A DNA stretch of 23,383 bases from a virus, in the IMG/VR virus record IMGVR_UViG_3300030329_000823, positions 1 through 23,383 of that record. One strand, 5' to 3'. How positions within the stretch are numbered: the stretch's first letter is position 1; every line of letters starts with the position of its first letter. The translations under genes were made by a program, and so were the position numbers. The notes beneath the pieces are model-generated. The model was given only the letters and a program-made list of their open reading frames with translations. It searched no databases and was not told the origin of the DNA. Below, in pieces: positions 3,616 through 22,354 of the stretch.

Positions 3616-6600
3616 ATGGCATTTATAGATCGAATCGGAGAAATTGCTTCTAAGGTTGTTGCTAAAACTTTATCTGATCCTGAAAAATCAGGTGAGCTAC
3701 TACGTTTAGGTTTAACCGCTGCAACTTTGCCTGATAGAGAAGATACCTCTCAATCTGCTTTTGATTTAGGAAGGTTTAGGCAATACAACATTTCGAGGCA
3801 GCAGGAGGATCAGGCTAAAGCTGCTGCACTGGAAGCTCAAAGAAAAGCTGCCGAAGAACAGAGAAAACGTATTTTTGAAATAGAAAAAGAAGATAGAAAA
3901 TTTAAGTTTGAAGCTGACATGAAAGTAGCTGAACACATAGCAGAACGTCAGAAAGAAAATCGTGATGCAGGTCGTGCTTTTAGAAGTGAATGGGAGACTT
4001 TTTCAGGTAATACAGGAACTCGTCATTGGAGCCAGTACGCTAATAATATTAAAAGAGATGATGGAACTACTGTGTATGTTCCTAATGAGGGTACTCAAAA
4101 GCTTTTTGAATTTAATAATATGTTTGGTCAGGGAAGTAAAGATGCTGACGTAAGAAAAAGGGGACTTATTGCTTTTGATAAATTTATAAGAGTAGCAGAC
4201 CAATCATACCGTATTAATGAGAAAAAATTATTAAAGGACGCTAACGCAAGAGCATCTCAAAGAGATCAAGTGATGTTGCATGGAAGTATGCAGAAAGTAG
4301 CAGCACAGTTAGGTTTTGACACTACAGACTATCTGGTTAGTAAGGACTCTTTTTCAAATAAACCTGTTGTTGATTCTAAAAGTGGACGAACAATTAGGTC
4401 TGGAAACGATAATAAAATTGATACACACTATTCTAAAATGGCAAATAATTTTTCATCGTTTTTCTCTCGATTTTTTGCAAAATATTCTTCAGAAGCAGAA
4501 AGATTAGGGTTTACCCGACAAGAGTTTGCAGATGTAACTCAAGCTTTTTCAAATATCAGAAAGAATATTTTAACTCCGGGTGAAGCAGGAAAAAGAAGTG
4601 ATGATTTAGACGTAGCAAGTGATGCTGCTGTATTTCTTGCTACTAAGTTAGGAGAAAAAGAGTCTCTTAGAAAAGTTCTTATTAGAGCAAAAAGCCCAAC
4701 AACCGTACATGGACCAAACGGACTAAACGATGCAAGAACATCTTCTACTGATGGAAAAGGAACTATTCAAGATTTAGATTTCTTTTTACGCAATCCGTTG
4801 TTAGCTCAAATTGCTTTAAAAGTAGGAGCAATAACCAATGAAGATATGAAACAAATTGAAAAAGAACGAACCAAAGCAGGTGGGCGTGGTTATGTATATA
4901 GAGGTGAATCAGCAGACGGAATAACATCAACCACAGTTTACGCTTATAAACCCCAACCTGCAAGTATTTTAGGACAGGCTATAGAAAATCAAAAACGAAA
5001 CACAAAAGCATTACTTGAGAATGCTACTCCAGAACAGAAACAAGAACATGCTGCTATAGAAAAAGAAATGAGTGAAAGATACACTTTGGGAGATGAAGAA
5101 AGACAAGATTTATTTTTTAGAAAACTAGATTTAGAAAATCAAATACGAGGAACTAGCCGTCGAAAAAACGAATATAAAGAAGCTGCTATTTATATAGCTT
5201 CAAACTCAGCTACACACATAATAACAAGGTCTGGTTTAGCCTCATCTACAATTCCTTTAGAGAGTGGTGGAATTGCAATGCGAGACAAAGATGATAAACC
5301 TACAAGATTTTACGTAGCTATGGAAAATAATGTAAAAAATGTTAATGAACTTTTAAAGATGCTTAAACGCATACGTAGGCTTGCACTAGTTAGTGAAAAA
5401 GATTTTGAAACGTTTGGAGGATCAGATGTTTTTTCTAAAGTTAGTCCTCTTATGGGTGCAGCAGGTGAAGTTTCGGGTAGGTTTGAAAGCGCGTTAAAAT
5501 TTGTACAAGAATTAACAAGAGTGGTTCGCGGAAGTGCTGCACAATATACTGGAGGTGAGTTGTTAAGTAGTATAAAAGAAGGTTCTTTGTATGAACAATT
5601 TGAAAACAATAGCGAAGAATTTCAAAAACTATACGGATATAAAGTTTCTCTTAATCCAGATAATGATGCCCGAATTAAAAACCTTGAAAATAAAACAAGA
5701 AAGGGATTTAATATAGCAGAAACAGATTTTAAAGAAGCTATGGAAAAAGCAGAAGGAGATGTTACTAAACAAAAAATAGCAAAAAGCATATACCTGAGAA
5801 GAACCGCGTTAATGTGGGAAAAAGCTGCTTTAACTTATAAATTAGCAGGATACGTTCAAGGAGAACAGACAGGTGGTCGAACAATTTCTAACCAAGACTT
5901 TGATAACATCTACAAAGCTTTGTGGGGTGGAAACTTTTCTAGTGAAGAATCTGCTATAAATGCTGTTCGATATCTTAACTTTACAACTCAAGAAATAAAA
6001 GATCGTGCTTTAGGCAATATGTTTCTTTTAGAAACAATTGGAAAAGGATTTAATCTTGGTTCAGTTCCTAACTTATATGCAGAAGAGATTTACGATAGAA
6101 GGTTAGATAAATTTTTTGGCGACAACCCCGATCTAAAACAGTTTGTAAAAAATGCTGGTATAGATTTAGAAAAAACTGAAAATCAAGCGCAAAGTCAAGA
6201 GGTACAAAATATTATTTTAATGGCAAAAGAACAAGATAAAGAATTGGGAAGTATACCTGAACTTACGGCAGTAGGTTTAGATGAGACAGGTATTAGAAAT
6301 TTAAATAAAACTGCGGTTAATCTATCTAGAGGTTTAAATAATAGTCGTAAAATTAGTAGAAGTGAAGATTTTGACAGCTATAGAGCTTTTGAAGACATAT
6401 ATAATGCGATACATAATCGTAGCGGAGGCCTTAGTGGTACGCTAAGTACGCTTACTGACAATTTTACAATATTAGAGGAAATTGTGGAAACAAACGACAA
6501 CAGAGCAGCAAAAGCTGCTATGTCTTTAGCATTACTGAAGGAAGTGCCTTATTTTGAAAAAATGAATACCATAGCACAAAATATAGCCACTATTTCTGTA

Positions 6601-6765
6601 CTTCTTCAAAATGCCGCAGATAGTGGAATGAATATTGATTACAATACTTTAGAGGAACAGTTTGGAAACAATGTAAGTACGCAAAATTCAGTAATACTTA
6701 AATTTTTTAGGGACGATCCTGACTTCTTAACATACATTTTTGACACATATCATAAGGCAAGCTAA
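3616..6765 (+). CDS. Giant putative virion protein (1049 aa)
   Basis: This is a 1049-aa protein from ATG 3616, 1 nt after the previous stop, with AGAGG upstream. Residues about 55-120 form a highly charged Lys/Glu/Ala coiled coil (KAAALEAQRKAAEEQRKRIF). The rest is largely helical, Asn/Lys-rich and without signal peptide, membrane segment or catalytic motif that can be recognised by eye. Size and place directly upstream of a 1595-aa gene match the T7 pair gp15-gp16, the ejected internal core proteins that build the trans-envelope DNA channel. This is positional inference only. Base composition is strongly AT-rich compared with the leftward replication genes. Confidence 0.45.
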   Translation: MAFIDRIGEIASKVVAKTLSDPEKSGELLRLGLTAATLPDREDTSQSAFDLGRFRQYNISRQQEDQAKAAALEAQRKAAEEQRKRIFEIEKEDRKFKFEADMKVAEHIAERQKENRDAGRAFRSEWETFSGNTGTRHWSQYANNIKRDDGTTVYVPNEGTQKLFEFNNMFGQGSKDADVRKRGLIAFDKFIRVADQSYRINEKKLLKDANARASQRDQVMLHGSMQKVAAQLGFDTTDYLVSKDSFSNKPVVDSKSGRTIRSGNDNKIDTHYSKMANNFSSFFSRFFAKYSSEAERLGFTRQEFADVTQAFSNIRKNILTPGEAGKRSDDLDVASDAAVFLATKLGEKESLRKVLIRAKSPTTVHGPNGLNDARTSSTDGKGTIQDLDFFLRNPLLAQIALKVGAITNEDMKQIEKERTKAGGRGYVYRGESADGITSTTVYAYKPQPASILGQAIENQKRNTKALLENATPEQKQEHAAIEKEMSERYTLGDEERQDLFFRKLDLENQIRGTSRRKNEYKEAAIYIASNSATHIITRSGLASSTIPLESGGIAMRDKDDKPTRFYVAMENNVKNVNELLKMLKRIRRLALVSEKDFETFGGSDVFSKVSPLMGAAGEVSGRFESALKFVQELTRVVRGSAAQYTGGELLSSIKEGSLYEQFENNSEEFQKLYGYKVSLNPDNDARIKNLENKTRKGFNIAETDFKEAMEKAEGDVTKQKIAKSIYLRRTALMWEKAALTYKLAGYVQGEQTGGRTISNQDFDNIYKALWGGNFSSEESAINAVRYLNFTTQEIKDRALGNMFLLETIGKGFNLGSVPNLYAEEIYDRRLDKFFGDNPDLKQFVKNAGIDLEKTENQAQSQEVQNIILMAKEQDKELGSIPELTAVGLDETGIRNLNKTAVNLSRGLNNSRKISRSEDFDSYRAFEDIYNAIHNRSGGLSGTLSTLTDNFTILEEIVETNDNRAAKAAMSLALLKEVPYFEKMNTIAQNIATISVLLQNAADSGMNIDYNTLEEQFGNNVSTQNSVILKFFRDDPDFLTYIFDTYHKAS

Positions 6766-6767
6766 CG

Positions 6768-9700
6768 ATGAGTGAAAATAGAGATGAAGAAATGTACGAA
6801 CAGGAAATGCAAGAGCTTTCTGGTGTAGACCCTACTGAAGAGAGGCGAGGTCTTGTATTTGAAAACATAGCAAAGGGTGGTAAAACTCCCCGTTTGTTTG
6901 AAAAGAAGTTTACTCCCGAACAATACGCTGCATACAAAAAACGTATAAATGAAAGGGCAGCAAGAATACCACAAGGAAGTGGCATAGAAACTGTTAAAGA
7001 CCCCAGTTTTCAAGCTGTACTTAGAGACTATGGAGATTTTAGAGGAGCTACTGACCCTACCGGAATGATGCGAGAGGGAGACTTAATTGAAGATATAAGA
7101 CGTTCAGACCTTCCGCTATTAGAATCACGCCGAACTCTAAAGGGAGAGAATGTATTTTTACCTTCCTTTCGTGACCCATCAGAGGCTTCTGAAGAAATAT
7201 TTGCATACCAAGACCTTTTTGAAGAAGAAGAAGAAGACACACAAACAACACCTGTTAAACAAAAATCTTTGGCGCAAAAGCTTCACGATAACAACGTAAA
7301 AAAAGCAAACCAACAACCTTCTACGTTAGAAATACTAGGTTCAGCCGCAAAAGATGTTGTTATATCTGCGATTGGGGGTACAGAACGTTCACTAACTAGA
7401 CCAGATACTTTAACCACTCGCGCAGGAGCTATATCAGCAGTGGAGGGTCTTGGAGACCTTGTATTACTATTAGGTCAAGAAACTTTTAGGTCAGGCCGTG
7501 GAGGTATAAGTGTTCTAGCTGATACAAGAACATATACTAATATAAGAGATGAGATTAACAATTATTTTAGCCCAAAAAAACAATCACGAAATTTTCTACC
7601 AACTAATAAAACAGCTATGCTTACCTATTTACAAGGTAGAAAAGATATGCAGGGACACATTGATAGCATTTCAAGATACCTAGAAGATAATGCGAAACAA
7701 GCATTAGGTTTGGACGATAATGTAGCTTTTAGTAGGTATTACGACAACGTAAGAGGTTTTTTCGAGATACCCGCAGATAGAGAAAATGCTTTTACAAAAG
7801 CTGCTAGTATATCTGGAATGTTAACTTTATTTGGAGGTTCTTTAGCAGCAACAAGAGGTGCTGTTTTGCTTGCTAGAAATTCGGGCAGAGTTTATGTCGC
7901 ATCCCGTGCCGCTCTTAGAACAGGTATTACTAAAAATTTTAAAGACAATTTTTTTAATCGACAAGTTTTGAACATTGATTTTGGAAAAACATACGCACCT
8001 GATAGATTTTACAGAACTCTTTCAGAAGGAGCAAGCATTGAACATCATGCAAAAATATTTGAATTAGGAGGAGTTCCTAGAGCAAAAGCTGTTGAAATGG
8101 CTAAAAACGCTAGACGAGATTTTCTAGGAGCAGTAGCAGGAGGTACATTGTATAGTATCTTTGATTCTATTTTTCAAGACGATATGGCAAACATGGGCGC
8201 TGCTTTTACAGGAAGTCTTTTGGGTAACTGGGCTGTTAGAAATGGACAAACACTTTTTTCAAGAGGTCTTTTAAATACTGTAACTAGATTAGCTTCTAGT
8301 GATAAAGGTGAATTTAGAAAATCTATTGAAGCTTTTAAAAATTCTGATTTTAAAGGAATGAATACACTACGTAAAACATTTTTACGAGTTCATGGACTTG
8401 AAACAACAGACATCAATGCTGCAAGACGTTCTTCTTTTACGCAAGGTGAGGAGGTTCTAGAGAAAATTAGAAAATTAGAACAAGAAGGTAACACTTCTCA
8501 AGCTGCAAAAGTAAAAACTAAAGCTATAAGTGAAGGTCTTTTAGATGATAAAGGACGCGCTCATGGTTGGTATGTTTTAGGCACAATACTAGAAAGCGGA
8601 TGGACTAAAAATAATATTAAGTACGGTGCTGCATTTCACAAAATAGTTTTAGATAGTGATACTGAAGATTCTAGAAGAGCTATACAACACATAGCTAGAT
8701 TGCAAACTTTGTTGGATGATTTGTATACTCAAGCTCCGAAAGCTATGGAAAAATTTCCCTTACTTGCAGAACAAGTTCTTGGTTTTTCAAAATTGCAAGC
8801 CATGAGAAATGCTCTTATGTCAAATGTTGAATTTTCTTCTTTTTCTGGCAAAGTTGTATCAGGTTCATTAATTAGTGAAACTGAAAAATATCAAGAATTA
8901 TTAAGCGATCAAGCTGTAAAACTAAAAGAAGCTTTTAAAGAATTTACACAATCAGGAGACATTAAACAATCTGATGCTCTAAATGAACTTTCTAAAGACA
9001 TTAATAGGTTAATTTCTGAACAGAATTTAGACTTCGATTTAGGAAGATTACAGAAGTTAAAAAAATACGCTAATTCTTCATTAAACATTCAAACTAAAGC
9101 AATTGAAGACAACGTAAATGATTTAATGAAAATGAGCGGAATGAACGGAATAGGTAATGAAATAGTTAGAAAAGAAAGAGGTATACAAAGTATAAATCTT
9201 CTTCAACGTGGTTTCTCTTCTTTGCAAGATAGAGCTAAACAACCTTTTGATAAATTAAAAATAGACCATGCAGATTTAGAAATAGACGTTTCTGATTTTA
9301 TGGTAGGCTTACCTGCTGAGTTTGATAACATAGAAAAAAATGTTCGTTCTCTATTTCTTAATTTTGGAAAATTTGACAATGCTACGATGAATCGTTTGTA
9401 TCGAGATGCAAGCACTGATTTCTTCAAAAAACAAATGGGTTTATCTTCAACAGAAGCTATCACCACGCCAGAACAGTATCAAGCTTTTCAAACTCAAATA
9501 CAGAAATTTATTAATCAAAATCCTGTTGTTGGAGGGCAAGGCACTGCTGAAGAAAAGAAAGCGATCTTTAATGATGTAATGCAAAACGCTAGAAGGATAG
9601 AACAATCAGGAGAGGCTGTAAATTACTCTGATTTAGCTAATATGGTTGTGTCTAACATGATAGCTAAATATGAGATACCTGCAAAATTAAATGTAGATAC

Positions 9701-11555
9701 TCTTATGACTATGCGATCTGCAATGGGAGACATGGCAAGACAAAGGTTTAATGCTAACGACTTTGATGGATACAGAATTATAAAAGAACGTATTAATCAA
9801 TTTGATACAGCCTTAGAAAATAATAGTGGAATTTTTGGAGGAAGTTTTGTACAAGATTATGCGAAGGCTAGAAAACACTATTCAGATGTATTTAGACCAT
9901 ATCTAGAAGATGGCAGTCCTTTTTTTAAAATTGCAAACACAGGTGGACAAGAAAGACGACAACCTGTTTCTCCCTCAAAATTATTTCAAATGTTTTTTAC
10001 AGGAGGAGATGATACAGCATCAAATGCTAGGCATTTTGCAAAAGTATTTTCTGATGCAGACGGAAACATTAATCCAGAAGCTATAGATGTTTTGTTGTAC
10101 TCAATGACAGACTACATGGTTGATTCTTATAAAAACTTAAATTTAACAAGTTTAGATAAGGTTATGAAAGAAGTAGTATCTGAATTTGCTCCTATGATTA
10201 GACAAGCAAATAAATCTAAATACGTTGATACTTTAGAAAATATGGTAGCAGTTTTATCTAAAGACGGAGAAGAAGTAATACAAGCTAGAAAACAGTTTGG
10301 TGAAACACTTTCTACATTTATTAATAACTCTTTTGAAGTAAGAAAAAAAGTATTTAGAGATACAGCAGTTGCTCAATTAGGACGACCTGTTATTGCAAGA
10401 CATTCTGTTCACTTAAATGCTTTAGACTTAAAAATGAATGACATTCAAGAAAAATTACTTACTCGTACGTTAGGAGAAGGTAGTCTCAAGTATGACACTT
10501 ATGAAAATTTTATTTCTAGTATAAAAAACTCTACAGAATACGAAAAAATTATTAGCGATGTGCCAGAACTAAAAGACGAAATAGACGCTATATTATCAAA
10601 TTCAGAATTTGTAAAAACTTTTAAAACTATATCTACTGGCCCAAGTGGTTTAAGTGGTAAGCCAACTCTTGAAATAATTTTAACAGATGCAAAAGATTCT
10701 TTAGAGAGAGGTTTTATGTCTCAAGCAGATTATGACAGAATTGTAAAAAATGCAGGTATTCTCATAGATGATAATTTTATGAGACATATGTTTCCATACA
10801 TCAACAGAGCAAGACCTACAAATTATGGAGGTGCTGTTGGTGACATGGAAGAAGTTTCTACAGGTTTAGCAACTGCTTTACGTGAGATAGGTGAAAAAAG
10901 AGGTCTTAAATATCATCAAGTTTTAAATCAACTTAGGTTAAGAAACAGTGAGATCATGCTGGAGTTAAATCGCAGAGGTTTTGGAAAGGTAGATGAAAGG
11001 TTAGGTTTAAGACAAAGAAAATTTAAATTTAACGTAGAGCATGAATACGATATGGTTGCTGCTCAAAATTGGTGGGATGAAAATAAAGAGGTTTATGCTT
11101 TAATTAAAGATAAAGAACATATGGAATTTATCGACAATCTTATGGAGACAGGTGCTATTACTAGAGGAATGTCTACTTCAGCAACTGAAGTAAGAAATGC
11201 TCCTAAAGAATACACCACTGCACAAGGTTTAGGACGAGTATATAACACTTTTGGAAAGCATGTTGTATCACCCGCATATATTGGTATGGAAAAAGCTGTA
11301 GTAGATTTCAGAGTAGCGAGAGCTAACATCGTTAAAGATTTACTAACAAATAAAGAGTCGGCTAAGTTTTTAACAAACATTTTTTCAGAAGGTCTGTTTG
11401 AGCCTACAAAAGCTAGAGCTTATATTAAGAGAATAGCTTTTCGACTAGCAGTAACAGGTCATAAGTTAACTGGCCCCAACGCAGTAGATGAAATATTTAA
11501 AGAATTAGAAAGAACAGCAAGTGAAGTAAGGAAAGAAAAAGAACAGGAAACATAA
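6768..11555 (+). CDS. Giant putative virion / DNA-ejection protein (1595 aa)
   Basis: This is a 1595-aa protein from ATG 6768, 2 nt after the previous stop, with AAGG about 10 nt upstream. It is the largest gene in the window. It is mostly charged and helical, with hydrophobic or glycine-rich stretches near residues 344-362 (AASISGMLTLFGGSLAATRG) and 453-490 that could insert into membranes. A Glu-rich patch lies near residues 151-156. No lytic transglycosylase-like motif was recognised, unlike T7 gp16, whose N-terminus carries one. Position after the 1049-aa protein and before the lysis cassette suggests an internal core or ejection protein. A non-enzymatic structural scaffold is the alternative. 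Confidence 0.45.
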   Translation: MSENRDEEMYEQEMQELSGVDPTEERRGLVFENIAKGGKTPRLFEKKFTPEQYAAYKKRINERAARIPQGSGIETVKDPSFQAVLRDYGDFRGATDPTGMMREGDLIEDIRRSDLPLLESRRTLKGENVFLPSFRDPSEASEEIFAYQDLFEEEEEDTQTTPVKQKSLAQKLHDNNVKKANQQPSTLEILGSAAKDVVISAIGGTERSLTRPDTLTTRAGAISAVEGLGDLVLLLGQETFRSGRGGISVLADTRTYTNIRDEINNYFSPKKQSRNFLPTNKTAMLTYLQGRKDMQGHIDSISRYLEDNAKQALGLDDNVAFSRYYDNVRGFFEIPADRENAFTKAASISGMLTLFGGSLAATRGAVLLARNSGRVYVASRAALRTGITKNFKDNFFNRQVLNIDFGKTYAPDRFYRTLSEGASIEHHAKIFELGGVPRAKAVEMAKNARRDFLGAVAGGTLYSIFDSIFQDDMANMGAAFTGSLLGNWAVRNGQTLFSRGLLNTVTRLASSDKGEFRKSIEAFKNSDFKGMNTLRKTFLRVHGLETTDINAARRSSFTQGEEVLEKIRKLEQEGNTSQAAKVKTKAISEGLLDDKGRAHGWYVLGTILESGWTKNNIKYGAAFHKIVLDSDTEDSRRAIQHIARLQTLLDDLYTQAPKAMEKFPLLAEQVLGFSKLQAMRNALMSNVEFSSFSGKVVSGSLISETEKYQELLSDQAVKLKEAFKEFTQSGDIKQSDALNELSKDINRLISEQNLDFDLGRLQKLKKYANSSLNIQTKAIEDNVNDLMKMSGMNGIGNEIVRKERGIQSINLLQRGFSSLQDRAKQPFDKLKIDHADLEIDVSDFMVGLPAEFDNIEKNVRSLFLNFGKFDNATMNRLYRDASTDFFKKQMGLSSTEAITTPEQYQAFQTQIQKFINQNPVVGGQGTAEEKKAIFNDVMQNARRIEQSGEAVNYSDLANMVVSNMIAKYEIPAKLNVDTLMTMRSAMGDMARQRFNANDFDGYRIIKERINQFDTALENNSGIFGGSFVQDYAKARKHYSDVFRPYLEDGSPFFKIANTGGQERRQPVSPSKLFQMFFTGGDDTASNARHFAKVFSDADGNINPEAIDVLLYSMTDYMVDSYKNLNLTSLDKVMKEVVSEFAPMIRQANKSKYVDTLENMVAVLSKDGEEVIQARKQFGETLSTFINNSFEVRKKVFRDTAVAQLGRPVIARHSVHLNALDLKMNDIQEKLLTRTLGEGSLKYDTYENFISSIKNSTEYEKIISDVPELKDEIDAILSNSEFVKTFKTISTGPSGLSGKPTLEIILTDAKDSLERGFMSQADYDRIVKNAGILIDDNFMRHMFPYINRARPTNYGGAVGDMEEVSTGLATALREIGEKRGLKYHQVLNQLRLRNSEIMLELNRRGFGKVDERLGLRQRKFKFNVEHEYDMVAAQNWWDENKEVYALIKDKEHMEFIDNLMETGAITRGMSTSATEVRNAPKEYTTAQGLGRVYNTFGKHVVSPAYIGMEKAVVDFRVARANIVKDLLTNKESAKFLTNIFSEGLFEPTKARAYIKRIAFRLAVTGHKLTGPNAVDEIFKELERTASEVRKEKEQET

Positions 11556-15629: not shown

Positions 15630-16021
15630 GTTCCATATATCCTTAAACAAGCTGCAAGACTTTTTCTAAAGTATTTATAAGATCGTGGACAGAACTCTAA
15701 TAACTTATCTTCTCTGCATTCATCTAAATCTGACTTTACTATAACGACTATTTTATTTTCACGCAACAGGTCTTCCACAGAACCTATGTCTTCTTTTACT
15801 TTTATTCTATTAACATCAAACTCATCGTCTGTCCAGTAGGCTCCCCGCTCATCGCCGGGAGCCTTTTTGATACGCAGTCCTATACCTCTTTTGTGTCGAG
15901 ACAGAAAGACTGCGCCCTGACTTACTGGTTGTCTTTTATCATTATCTAGATAGACATAATGTACACCTTTGTTAACGTCTACGTCTTGTGTAGATAATAT
16001 CTGTTGCATTAACAATGGCAT
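15626..16021 (-). CDS. Unknown protein between primase-helicase and resolvase
   Basis: This is a 131-aa protein starting at ATG 16021, which shares one base with the primase-helicase stop (TAATG). It ends in an ATGA overlap with the resolvase, so it is clearly part of the operon. It looks like a small alpha/beta protein: HYVYLDN, GAVFLSRHKRGIGLRIKKAP, then an acidic middle (DDEFDVNRIKVKEDIGSVED), a hydrophobic strand (KIVVIVK) and a C-terminal helix with PRSYKYFRKSLAACLRIYG. No nuclease or nucleotide-binding motif is recognised. Part of its coding sequence (15838-15868) forms a strong terminator-like hairpin on the opposite strand. Confidence 0.55.
   Translation of the reverse strand: MPLLMQQILSTQDVDVNKGVHYVYLDNDKRQPVSQGAVFLSRHKRGIGLRIKKAPGDERGAYWTDDEFDVNRIKVKEDIGSVEDLLRENKIVVIVKSDLDECREDKLLEFCPRSYKYFRKSLAACLRIYGT
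15838..15868 (+). terminator. Plus-strand intrinsic terminator antisense to the replication operon
   Basis: On the plus strand AGGCTCCC (15838-15845) and GGGAGCCT (15857-15864) form a perfect 8-bp GC-rich stem with an 11-nt loop, immediately followed by more T (TTTTT at 15864-15868). This is a textbook Rho-independent terminator shape for rightward transcription, lying inside a leftward gene. It has no T tract in the leftward direction, so it should not stop the operon it lies in. Confidence 0.6.
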
Positions 16022-17601
16022 TAAACTAACTCATTGTTGTGCGACATGACTTCGCGAAGGCGGTTAGTATCGTTATCAAAGAACAGCGTACTACACAGTC
16101 CTGTCATACCGCTAAAACGGTTCTTAATGACACGTACCTTTGTAGTGTTACGTTCTACAGGACAGTCAGCTTGTCCATTACGTTCCAAGCCTAGTACAAG
16201 ATCACTTAGCTGTCCGATGCTATGAGAACCACGCAGATGGTTCAGAGATAGCTCCTTACCTTCCTCATGCGATCCATCCGACACTCTGCGTAGGTGGGTA
16301 GCTATAATCATGCAGATACCTAGCTCCTGCACTAGCGTACGCAATTTAGTCATACACTCGTCAATCGTACGCCTTTCATCAAAGCCATGTTCCTGTGAGC
16401 TAACAAGAATGCTGATGTGATCTAGTACGATATACTTACACTTTAGAACCTTTGCCATGTAGCGCATACGTCCAATGATATTTTGTATGGAGTTGCTACC
16501 AAAGTGGTCAAAGAAAAAGATACGTCCACTACCTACAGTATCATCAAAGGCTTTGCGATACTCTTCCTGTGTATACTCTGTATCAGGTAGGTGGTAAGGC
16601 TTGCTACCGTGTATGCCCATAAGAGCTTTTGCCGTAGTCTTTACGGACTCTTCAAGAAACATTAAGCCTATGTTCTCTTCTGTAGATGAAAACACATGAT
16701 ACACAAGCTCACGTAGAAAGCCGCTCTTTCCTATACCTGTACCAGCACAGACAGTTATAAGCTCACCCGGACGCATACCGTATGTATATTTGTTCAGTCC
16801 AGCATAGGGATACGTTGCGATAGACTTCTCTGGACCCTTGTTAATCTCATCCCATAAGTCTGTGCCTGACACAATGCCTTCTGGAGTGTGTGTCGTAGCG
16901 TTCCACCAATCTTGTTTAAACTGTGCTATGGCACTCTTCTCAAGATATTCGTTAGGGTCTTTGTATCGCATGTTGACAACAGAAGCTTTTGGTGCCAGTA
17001 GCTCTGCTGCTTTTCTAGCTGCTGCTTGGCCTACTTCATCGTTATCAAAACAAATACGAATGTTATCGAACTGATTTAGAAAGTCATAGTTCTCGTTAAT
17101 GTCTTTCTCTACAGATTGTGCGCCAGACCTTATGGATACAACAGGCCACTGACTGTCGAACATTTGATAGACAGACATAGCGTCTATCTCTCCTTCGACT
17201 AACGTAATGTATTTACCACCGTTGCCGAATATCTGCTGACCAAAAAGACCACAGTCTGAGATGCTGCCCTCTGTAAAGAACTGCTTATTATTTGTTCTTA
17301 TTTTGTTGGCAACGTGTGAATTACTTTTATTATAATAAGGGTAAATATGCTCACCCTTGTTATTGAGCGTAACGCCGTATCGAAAACATACATCTTTTCG
17401 TATATTTCGGTCGTTTATCGAGTCTGAATACCCTTGAGATAGTTCAAGGTTGTTGTCAAACGGCACGATATTTTCTCCTTTGTGAGTAGTATTGCAAGAG
17501 AAGCAATGAGTACCCCCATCCATATAAACAGAAAGGGCATCGCTAGAACCACAGTCGGGGCAGGGTTGATGTGTCTTGACATATTTTGCATTTGCTGTCA
17601 C
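16021..17601 (-). CDS. T7 gp4-like DNA primase-helicase
   Basis: This is a 526-aa bifunctional replication protein that unwinds the fork 5'-3' as a hexamer and primes the lagging strand. An N-terminal zinc finger has C14-x2-C17 and C33-x2-C36. The TOPRIM primase core shows LVEGEID (E136/E138) and DND (186-188). The RecA-type helicase domain has Walker A AGTGIGKSG (286-294), EES (317-319), Walker B YIVLDHIS (390-397), a sensor His in ATHLRR (H436) and RGSHSIGQLSD (457-467). The start is GTG 17601, with GAGGAG 11 nt upstream lying inside the apparent tail of the exonuclease frame. It shares one base with the downstream gene. Length is close to T7 gp4 (566 aa). Confidence 0.95.
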   Translation of the reverse strand: MTANAKYVKTHQPCPDCGSSDALSVYMDGGTHCFSCNTTHKGENIVPFDNNLELSQGYSDSINDRNIRKDVCFRYGVTLNNKGEHIYPYYNKSNSHVANKIRTNNKQFFTEGSISDCGLFGQQIFGNGGKYITLVEGEIDAMSVYQMFDSQWPVVSIRSGAQSVEKDINENYDFLNQFDNIRICFDNDEVGQAAARKAAELLAPKASVVNMRYKDPNEYLEKSAIAQFKQDWWNATTHTPEGIVSGTDLWDEINKGPEKSIATYPYAGLNKYTYGMRPGELITVCAGTGIGKSGFLRELVYHVFSSTEENIGLMFLEESVKTTAKALMGIHGSKPYHLPDTEYTQEEYRKAFDDTVGSGRIFFFDHFGSNSIQNIIGRMRYMAKVLKCKYIVLDHISILVSSQEHGFDERRTIDECMTKLRTLVQELGICMIIATHLRRVSDGSHEEGKELSLNHLRGSHSIGQLSDLVLGLERNGQADCPVERNTTKVRVIKNRFSGMTGLCSTLFFDNDTNRLREVMSHNNELV

Positions 17602-17603
17602 CT

Positions 17604-17711
17604 TTAAAACAACTCCTCTACTTTCGGCTCTGCTACGACTTTTGTAAAGTATTTGATACCGTTAGCATATTTAAACTTACGCAATCCTTTACCATCATTC
17701 GCATCCTGCCA
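17604..17711 (-). pseudogene. Detached in-frame C-terminal tail of the exonuclease after TGA
   Basis: Directly after the exonuclease stop (TGA 17714-17712) the same frame stays open for 35 codons and ends at TAA 17606-17604, 2 nt before the primase start. It encodes WQDANDGKGLRKFKYANGIK and then YFTKVVAEPKVEELF. This resembles the usual end of phage Cas4/RecB-like exonucleases, recalled from memory. It has no ATG and no convincing start of its own. The tail is therefore either translated by readthrough, or lost through a nonsense change, or the TGA is a sequencing error. Confidence 0.6.
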
Positions 17712-18452
17712 TCATCTAGTTTTAAAATCACAATAACGACATGGAAAATCAATAATGTAATTACCACTAGTTCCCATTGGAACAGGATCATAGCATTTCT
17801 CAGGCACATCGTCAAGGTCGATAACCTTCTTGAGGTGGTCGATACGAGCCGATGCGTCGATCTTTGTAAGTTCGTCAACCATCAACAAAGCGATCTCTCC
17901 GGTGCTTTTATCGTATGCTAGAAAGCCACCTTCGTCACAATCTTCAGCTTCCATATATCCTGATATTTGTCCGATATACCCAAAAGCGTCTTCCTCAAAC
18001 AATGTACCTTGTTTAAACTTTTTAAATCCTTTGTTTGATGCAGATTTAACATCAATAATACAGCCATCGATCTTAGCATCAATGTGTCCTGTTATACCTT
18101 GCAGCTTAACTTCTTTCTGTTCATCTTCGACAGTATGTCCAGACTCTGCAACAAGAAACAAAAGCAAGGCTTCTACAATATTACCATAAAAGAATTTTAA
18201 AAGTAACTCTGGTGGGTGCTTTACCGGATCAGAGTGCATTTCATACCAAAGCTTACGATCTTCTCTACCTATATTGGACATACGAAGCTTTGATGAACGT
18301 GTACGCTCTTCAGGATCAAGAAAGCGTAACGCTTCTTCTTTTAGAGTATCAACAAACTTCTGTAAATTTTTAGGATTAACTTTGTCTTTACCATTTGTAA
18401 TTACATTATGAACATCTGGTAACAGCGTGTATATTGATTTTTCATATGACAT
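17712..18452 (-). CDS. Cas4/RecB-like PD-(D/E)XK exonuclease, stopped at an iron-sulfur cysteine
   Basis: The frame encodes 246 aa from ATG 18452, chosen for AAGGAT 5 nt upstream; an earlier in-frame start at 18515 crosses a terminator-like hairpin. The nuclease core shows GNIVEA (E94), GHID (D125), IIDVK (D134/K136) and the RecB-family QxxxY motif in GQISGYM (Q162/Y166). It probably degrades host DNA and processes ends, taking the place of T7 gp6. C220, C238 and C241 precede a TGA at codon 247. C238-x2-C241-x5-TGA is exactly the CX2CX5C pattern of AddB/Cas4-type 4Fe-4S clusters with the last Cys replaced by stop. Reading through gives 282 aa. As it stands the protein should lack one cluster ligand and its C-terminal tail. 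Confidence 0.8.
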   Translation of the reverse strand: MSYEKSIYTLLPDVHNVITNGKDKVNPKNLQKFVDTLKEEALRFLDPEERTRSSKLRMSNIGREDRKLWYEMHSDPVKHPPELLLKFFYGNIVEALLLFLVAESGHTVEDEQKEVKLQGITGHIDAKIDGCIIDVKSASNKGFKKFKQGTLFEEDAFGYIGQISGYMEAEDCDEGGFLAYDKSTGEIALLMVDELTKIDASARIDHLKKVIDLDDVPEKCYDPVPMGTSGNYIIDFPCRYCDFKTR

Positions 18453-18634
18453 AAATAATCCTTTATAAAAAATAGGGAGTCTTTCTTGTGAAGGCACTCC
18501 CTCTTTTCCCACCAATTTTTATTTTGTGTCGTTATTGGCTTAACCGCTCGAAAGCTCGACATTGTATCTAGGCCCCATCCCTCTTTTCCCCTAGATACCA
18601 CAGAGACGGTTACTCTGCACCCAATAGACTATTG
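18453..18634 (-). other. Structured non-coding gap with hairpins and a direct repeat
   Basis: This 182-bp gap holds no convincing gene. It contains stem pairs 18601-18605/18613-18617 (CAGAG/CTCTG) and 18564-18572/18590-18598 (GTATCTAGG/CCTAGATAC, perfect 9 bp, 17-nt loop), plus a weak pair at 18512-18516/18534-18538. A further hairpin lies at its SSB edge (18625-18642) and a terminator-like hairpin at its exonuclease edge. TCCCTCTTTTCCC occurs twice, at 18498-18510 and 18578-18590, exactly 80 bp apart. It is the only long gap within the leftward operon. Confidence 0.65.
18467..18501 (-). terminator. Terminator or attenuator upstream of the exonuclease
   Basis: On the minus strand GGGAGT (18501-18496) pairs with ACTCCC (18480-18475), with partial inner pairing (CTTC/GAAAG), followed by TATTTTTT (18474-18467). 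The T tract ends only 3 nt before the exonuclease ribosome site AAGGAT (18463-18458). It could end SSB transcripts or act as an attenuator that lowers exonuclease expression. Confidence 0.6.
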
Positions 18635-21874: not shown

Positions 21875-22354
21875 TTACCTCATGTCCATATAGAATATGT
21901 GTGTACCTATCTGTTCAATCTTTTTCATTTCAAAGAGCCACTTTGGACTTACATAGCTTGCATGGTAGTGCGTGGCTCCTAGTGTAGACAAAACCACCAC
22001 TCCTTTCATAGCTAAAGAAGCTACGTCAAAAGCTGTGTTTAATGCTTTTTTATCCACAGAGTCCCATTCTTTCTTACCATCACAATAATAGCTAAATGCA
22101 CATTTATGTTTTATCATTTTTCCTTTCCATCTTTTTCCAGAGTGTACAACTTTACATATAGTGTCAGGAAAGTATTCAAGGTTTACACGCTCTAGGATTA
22201 CATTAGCTACAGATAGCTGACCTATAAAAGACTCAGAACGAGCCTCATGGTATACAGCTTCTACAAGACAACTTAATTCATCAGTCTCTTCTGCATAAGC
22301 TGTAGAGTTTATACTTAATACAGCAGCAATCGCTGTCATTGTTTTTTTTATCAT
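21875..22354 (-). CDS. Exported SleB-type cell wall hydrolase
   Basis: This is a 159-aa protein whose ATG overlaps the upstream stop (ATGA). An N-terminal signal peptide is visible: MIKK, hydrophobic TAIAAVLSI, then NSTAYA and likely cleavage near residue 21. The Hydrolase_2/SleB pattern follows: LVEAVYHEARSE with probable catalytic E37, GQLSVANVILERV (45-57), CAFSYYCDG (85-93), and GATHYHASYVSPKW (126-139) with IGTHIFY (149-155). Family members cleave peptidoglycan as transglycosylase- or amidase-like enzymes, and phages use them as endolysins. Here it would reach the periplasm by Sec rather than through a holin. It is unusual in lying within the replication operon, far from the holin-like genes. 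Confidence 0.85.
   Translation of the reverse strand: MIKKTMTAIAAVLSINSTAYAEETDELSCLVEAVYHEARSESFIGQLSVANVILERVNLEYFPDTICKVVHSGKRWKGKMIKHKCAFSYYCDGKKEWDSVDKKALNTAFDVASLAMKGVVVLSTLGATHYHASYVSPKWLFEMKKIEQIGTHIFYMDMR

Follow-up and report, generated by a model that had tools for sequence, protein, structure and literature searches.

Known relatives and identity of the exonuclease

The Cas4 protein SSO0001 (PDB 4ic1) has a C-terminal cysteine triad and a fourth cysteine near the N-terminus, and replacement of any one of its four cysteines by alanine yields insoluble protein (PMC3466216). The nuclease domain of AddB (AddAB, PDB 4ceh/3u44) also combines a PD-(D/E)XK active site with a C-terminal cysteine triad. 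Proteins of family phrog_1990 occur in marine podoviruses, among them gp17 of Roseobacter phage SIO1 and gp26 of Pelagibacter phage HTVC115P. The viral DNA analysed here, a stretch of 23,383 nt referred to below as the window, encodes on its minus strand an exonuclease homologous to both over its full length (44–47% amino acid identity), and the four cysteines of the SIO1 enzyme are the same as the set formed in the window by C220, C238, C241 and codon 247. The gene neighbourhoods in SIO1 and HTVC115P resemble that of the window, with genes for DNA polymerase and endonuclease I, joined in SIO1 by ribonucleotide reductase. Unlike its phage relatives in phrog_1990, the window copy reads TGA at the last cysteine codon. 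Further relatives from isolated phages are found in Lentibacter phage ICBM1, Sinorhizobium phage phiM6 and Puniceispirillum phage HMO-2011. Comparison of the window with named phages by megablast gave no match, nor did a sequence search of solved structures.

An earlier note, made from the bare sequence, had called the product a phage exonuclease and likened its motif to that of AddB/Cas4-type nucleases, and this identity is upheld. The read-through protein matches the phrog_1990 profile (Cas4-domain exonuclease) with an E-value of 7.7e-48 over residues 22–269 of 281, and the PD-(D/E)XK catalytic residues E93, D124, D133 and K135 (numbered without the initiator Met), all encoded upstream of the TGA, are invariant in the alignment. 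With Cys entered at the TGA, the read-through frame was modelled by AlphaFold (mean pLDDT 93); the model has a Cas4/RecB-like nuclease fold, and its best match among solved folds is SSO0001 (Z 11.0, 178 residues, rmsd 3.8), with lambda exonuclease, Cas4/Cas1 and AddB (Z 6.2–6.6) as other matches. According to this model, the window enzyme would share with SSO0001 the Cas4 fold and the C-terminal cysteine triad; it differs in its predicted fourth ligand, C220, which lies just before the triad. It is unlike AddB in that it is short, stands alone without a helicase domain and has its fourth cysteine placed elsewhere.

An interrupted frame within a replication module

The neighbouring genes encode a family A DNA polymerase, a gp2.5-like ssDNA-binding protein, a T7-type primase/helicase, endonuclease I and ribonucleotide reductase, and the exonuclease thus sits in a replication module of the kind usual for marine podoviruses. 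The features of the locus are collected in Table 1. The earlier note had placed a TGA where the last cysteine of the CX2CX5C motif belongs, preceded by C238 and C241 and followed by 35 sense codons to a TAA that ends 2 nt upstream of the primase start, and this description proved correct to the base. It had also argued, from the location of the probable primase ribosome-binding site GAGGAG within the tail, that the genes were packed against the TAA and not against the TGA, and both points are upheld. The primase/helicase frame is unbroken, and is 99% identical in the related sequences G007 and G008.

Table 1. Coordinates of features at the exonuclease locus of the window.
Feature	Position	Strand	Basis
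Cas4-type exonuclease gene (PD-(D/E)XK, predicted Fe-S); ATG at 18452, TAA at 17606-17604; 282 codons in full when read through, interrupted by one TGA	17604..18452	-	phrog_1990, alignment, fold model
TGA at codon 247 (17714-17712), where the last Cys codon of CX2CX5C is expected	17712..17714	-	sequence and Cys codons in relatives
Conserved coding C-terminal tail, 35 codons and TAA	17604..17711	-	homologous tails in relatives
C238-x2-C241, first two Cys of the C-terminal triad (C238, 17741-17739; C241, 17732-17730)	17730..17741	-	sequence, alignment
C220, predicted fourth cluster ligand of the subfamily, replacing the N-terminal Cas4 Cys	17793..17795	-	alignment
GAGGAG (17618-17613), probable ribosome-binding site of the primase/helicase gene, within the exonuclease tail	17613..17618	-	sequence
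T7-type primase/helicase, intact; GTG at 17601	16021..17601	-	phrog_239, E 3e-171

Conservation of the cysteine and of the tail

The alignment with homologues that the earlier note had proposed gives a clear answer, since 205 of the 206 other sequences have Cys at the residue matching codon 247. The sole exception is the homologue of cyanophage PP, which lacks all four cluster cysteines. This homologue keeps the fold motifs, and represents a cluster-free member of the family. When 29 related viral contigs were compared codon by codon, a Cys codon was found at the site in every one (14 TGC, 15 TGT); the nine nearest contigs, which are 95–97% identical at the amino acid level and come from nine metagenomes, all have TGC, and those farther away have TGC or TGT. 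All relatives covering the region beyond the TGA end in a stretch that is homologous to the 35-codon tail at each residue; in them the length after the Cys is mostly 28–42 residues and at its shortest 19. As judged from these alignments, the tail beyond the TGA is genuine coding sequence.

The TGA itself, for which the earlier note had also suggested a search, did not recur at codon 247 in relatives down to about 40% identity, in records that may omit near-identical strains. No in-frame internal stop was found in some 57,000 codons of the relatives' exonucleases; an apparent stop in one of them (L198) was due to an ambiguous base (N). Of two pattern scans of viral contigs for TGA in the context of the site, one returned nothing and the other a single, unrelated match arising by chance in a contig (L034) which has no exonuclease.

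Origin of the stop codon

We consider the TGA to be a one-off, private single-base difference, either a base-level artefact or a very recent nonsense allele, and not a programmed or recoded codon (probability roughly 0.93). The difference, C to A in the third base of a Cys codon, affects a marine-phage Cas4-type exonuclease gene that is in other respects ordinary and intact. The near-universal Cys at the site, whose one exception has lost the whole cluster, argues for this reading, as do the lack of internal stops in relatives and the intact state of the remaining window relative to G007, in comparison with which no other in-frame stop or frameshift was seen. Against it stands the very rarity of stops among relatives, which counts equally against an error and an allele, as well as the chance that a near-identical strain sharing the TGA was missed in the records searched.

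Clues on the age of the stop were provided by the differences private to the window. Over 4.6 kb there are 39 of these relative to relatives, mostly transitions, of which 28 are synonymous, 10 nonsynonymous and 1 is the stop. Within the exonuclease, five other private amino-acid differences were noted, four of them shared with outgroups and one, K120T, not. With K120T and the stop alone truly private, the exonuclease shows no decay, and the stop is therefore either recent or not real. An old pseudogene under relaxed selection had been considered on the basis of a ratio of private nonsynonymous to synonymous changes of 5:6, compared with 3:23 in other lineages (p 0.035), and was dropped on account of the four residues that outgroups also have.

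Between the two versions of a one-off change, we judge a base-level artefact of sequencing, amplification or assembly consensus to be somewhat the likelier, because real nonsense alleles in a gene that all relatives keep should rarely reach the consensus, whereas a contig with thin coverage can be expected to contain single-base errors in its consensus. The other private differences of the window nevertheless resemble real evolution, so that errors do not seem widespread in the contig. A real nonsense allele of recent origin, present in part or all of the phage population, so that the contig would represent either a phage with a defective exonuclease or a genome of a minority that the assembly caught, is a tentative alternative to which we give rather less than even odds. 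In its favour, the contig bears ordinary evolved differences (the synonymous and nonsynonymous changes counted above) and no other lesion, so that generally poor contig quality is not the cause. Against such an allele stand the intact gene kept by every relative examined and the lack of any sign of relaxed selection when outgroups are used to polarise the changes; moreover, a consensus contig would be expected to carry the common allele.

Of the origins put forward in the earlier note, nonsense mutation and sequencing error both remain, and readthrough with insertion of Trp, Cys or selenocysteine is unsupported, because TGA is absent from this codon in relatives, the DNA downstream shows nothing distinctive and a decoding gene is lacking. 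Programmed readthrough or recoding of UGA, yielding the 282-residue enzyme either by itself or alongside a 246-residue form, would fit the intact tail and the frame kept past the stop; it is nonetheless highly improbable, as the UGA is not conserved in any relative down to the identity limit given above. The DNA following the TGA is the same over at least nine codons as in Cys-bearing relatives, the nine codons being identical in L001 and L007, and a selenocysteine-type hairpin was dropped from consideration, since the 58 nt from the UGA, inspected for a SECIS-like structure, fold like shuffled sequences (z 0.09). No tRNA gene, including any suppressor tRNA, was found in the window. TGA terminates several other window genes normally, and no other gene has it in frame, whereas an alternative code would place TGA within the frames of several genes and avoid it as a terminator; the view of the earlier note that the genetic code is not changed wholesale is accordingly sustained. 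Decoding of the UGA with some frequency, to Cys, Sec or Trp, in this lineage only, leading to a mixture of truncated, cluster-less and full enzyme through a switch confined to one strain, is less credible still. That the 246-residue protein works without a cluster, as cluster-free relatives such as that of cyanophage PP, with none of the four cysteines, presumably do, would agree with the position of the catalytic D/E/K residues ahead of the TGA, and yet is scarcely to be believed for a gene retaining the other three cluster cysteines and an intact tail, as expected of a new loss, when even the shortest tail among relatives extends 19 residues past the Cys.

Should the one-off TGA be real, translation would end after residue 246, and the product would be devoid of the last Fe-S ligand and of the conserved 35-residue tail, with the catalytic PD-(D/E)XK residues still encoded. 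Loss of function would be expected because the cysteine-to-alanine proteins of Sso0001 are insoluble, and we infer that the truncated exonuclease would probably be unstable and inactive.

Other features of the window

Immediately upstream of the exonuclease gene, the sequence GGGAAAAGAGGGA occurs twice on the minus strand (18495–18510 and 18575–18590). It is found nowhere else in the window, and none is expected in shuffled sequences. One of the copies lies inside an inverted repeat, GTATCTAGG...CCTAGATAC. A repeat finder run with default settings reported nothing in this intergenic region, where G007 has an insertion. The GGGAAAAGAGGGA repeat is possibly a regulatory element.

Two long genes of 1049 and 1595 aa, located at 3616–11555, show just 47% and 65% identity to their counterparts in G007, compared with 95–100% for most of the genes flanking this segment on both sides. 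This pattern suggests a mosaic exchange of large virion proteins. A 159-aa gene at 21875–22354, predicted from its sequence to encode a secreted cell-wall hydrolase type of protein, found no counterpart in the equivalent part of G007, in which the flanking genes are directly joined.

Two positions of the fourth cysteine in the family

The C-terminal CX2CX5C triad is found in relatives, though not in that of cyanophage PP, and is incomplete in the window, where two of the three cysteines are encoded and the third codon is TGA. The earlier note had named one more cysteine as a ligand of AddB/Cas4-type clusters. Such a fourth cysteine does exist in the window exonuclease, but not where AddB and Cas4 have it: the N-terminal Cys is absent, and C220 is present 17 residues before C238. 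Where the triad is complete (204 sequences), the near Cys occurs alone in 113, the N-terminal Cys alone in 86 and the two together in 5, and it is in no case (0) that both are missing; the same tally on clusters at 70% identity gives 54, 11, 5 and 0, respectively. Members entering this comparison include, besides the window (17793–17795), L045, L121, L043, L129–L131, L134 and others. This either/or pattern suggests that the fourth Fe-S ligand may have changed place within the marine phage exonuclease family, and members with both cysteines (HMO-2011 and its kin) are possible intermediates. In the part of the literature covered, no report of a relocated fourth Cys was found.

A claim of recoding would have been notable for this exonuclease, and the one-off status of its TGA keeps a false lead out. 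What the comparison establishes for the family is that the predicted fourth Fe-S ligand can occupy one or other of two places in the sequence, and that some members have a Cys at both.
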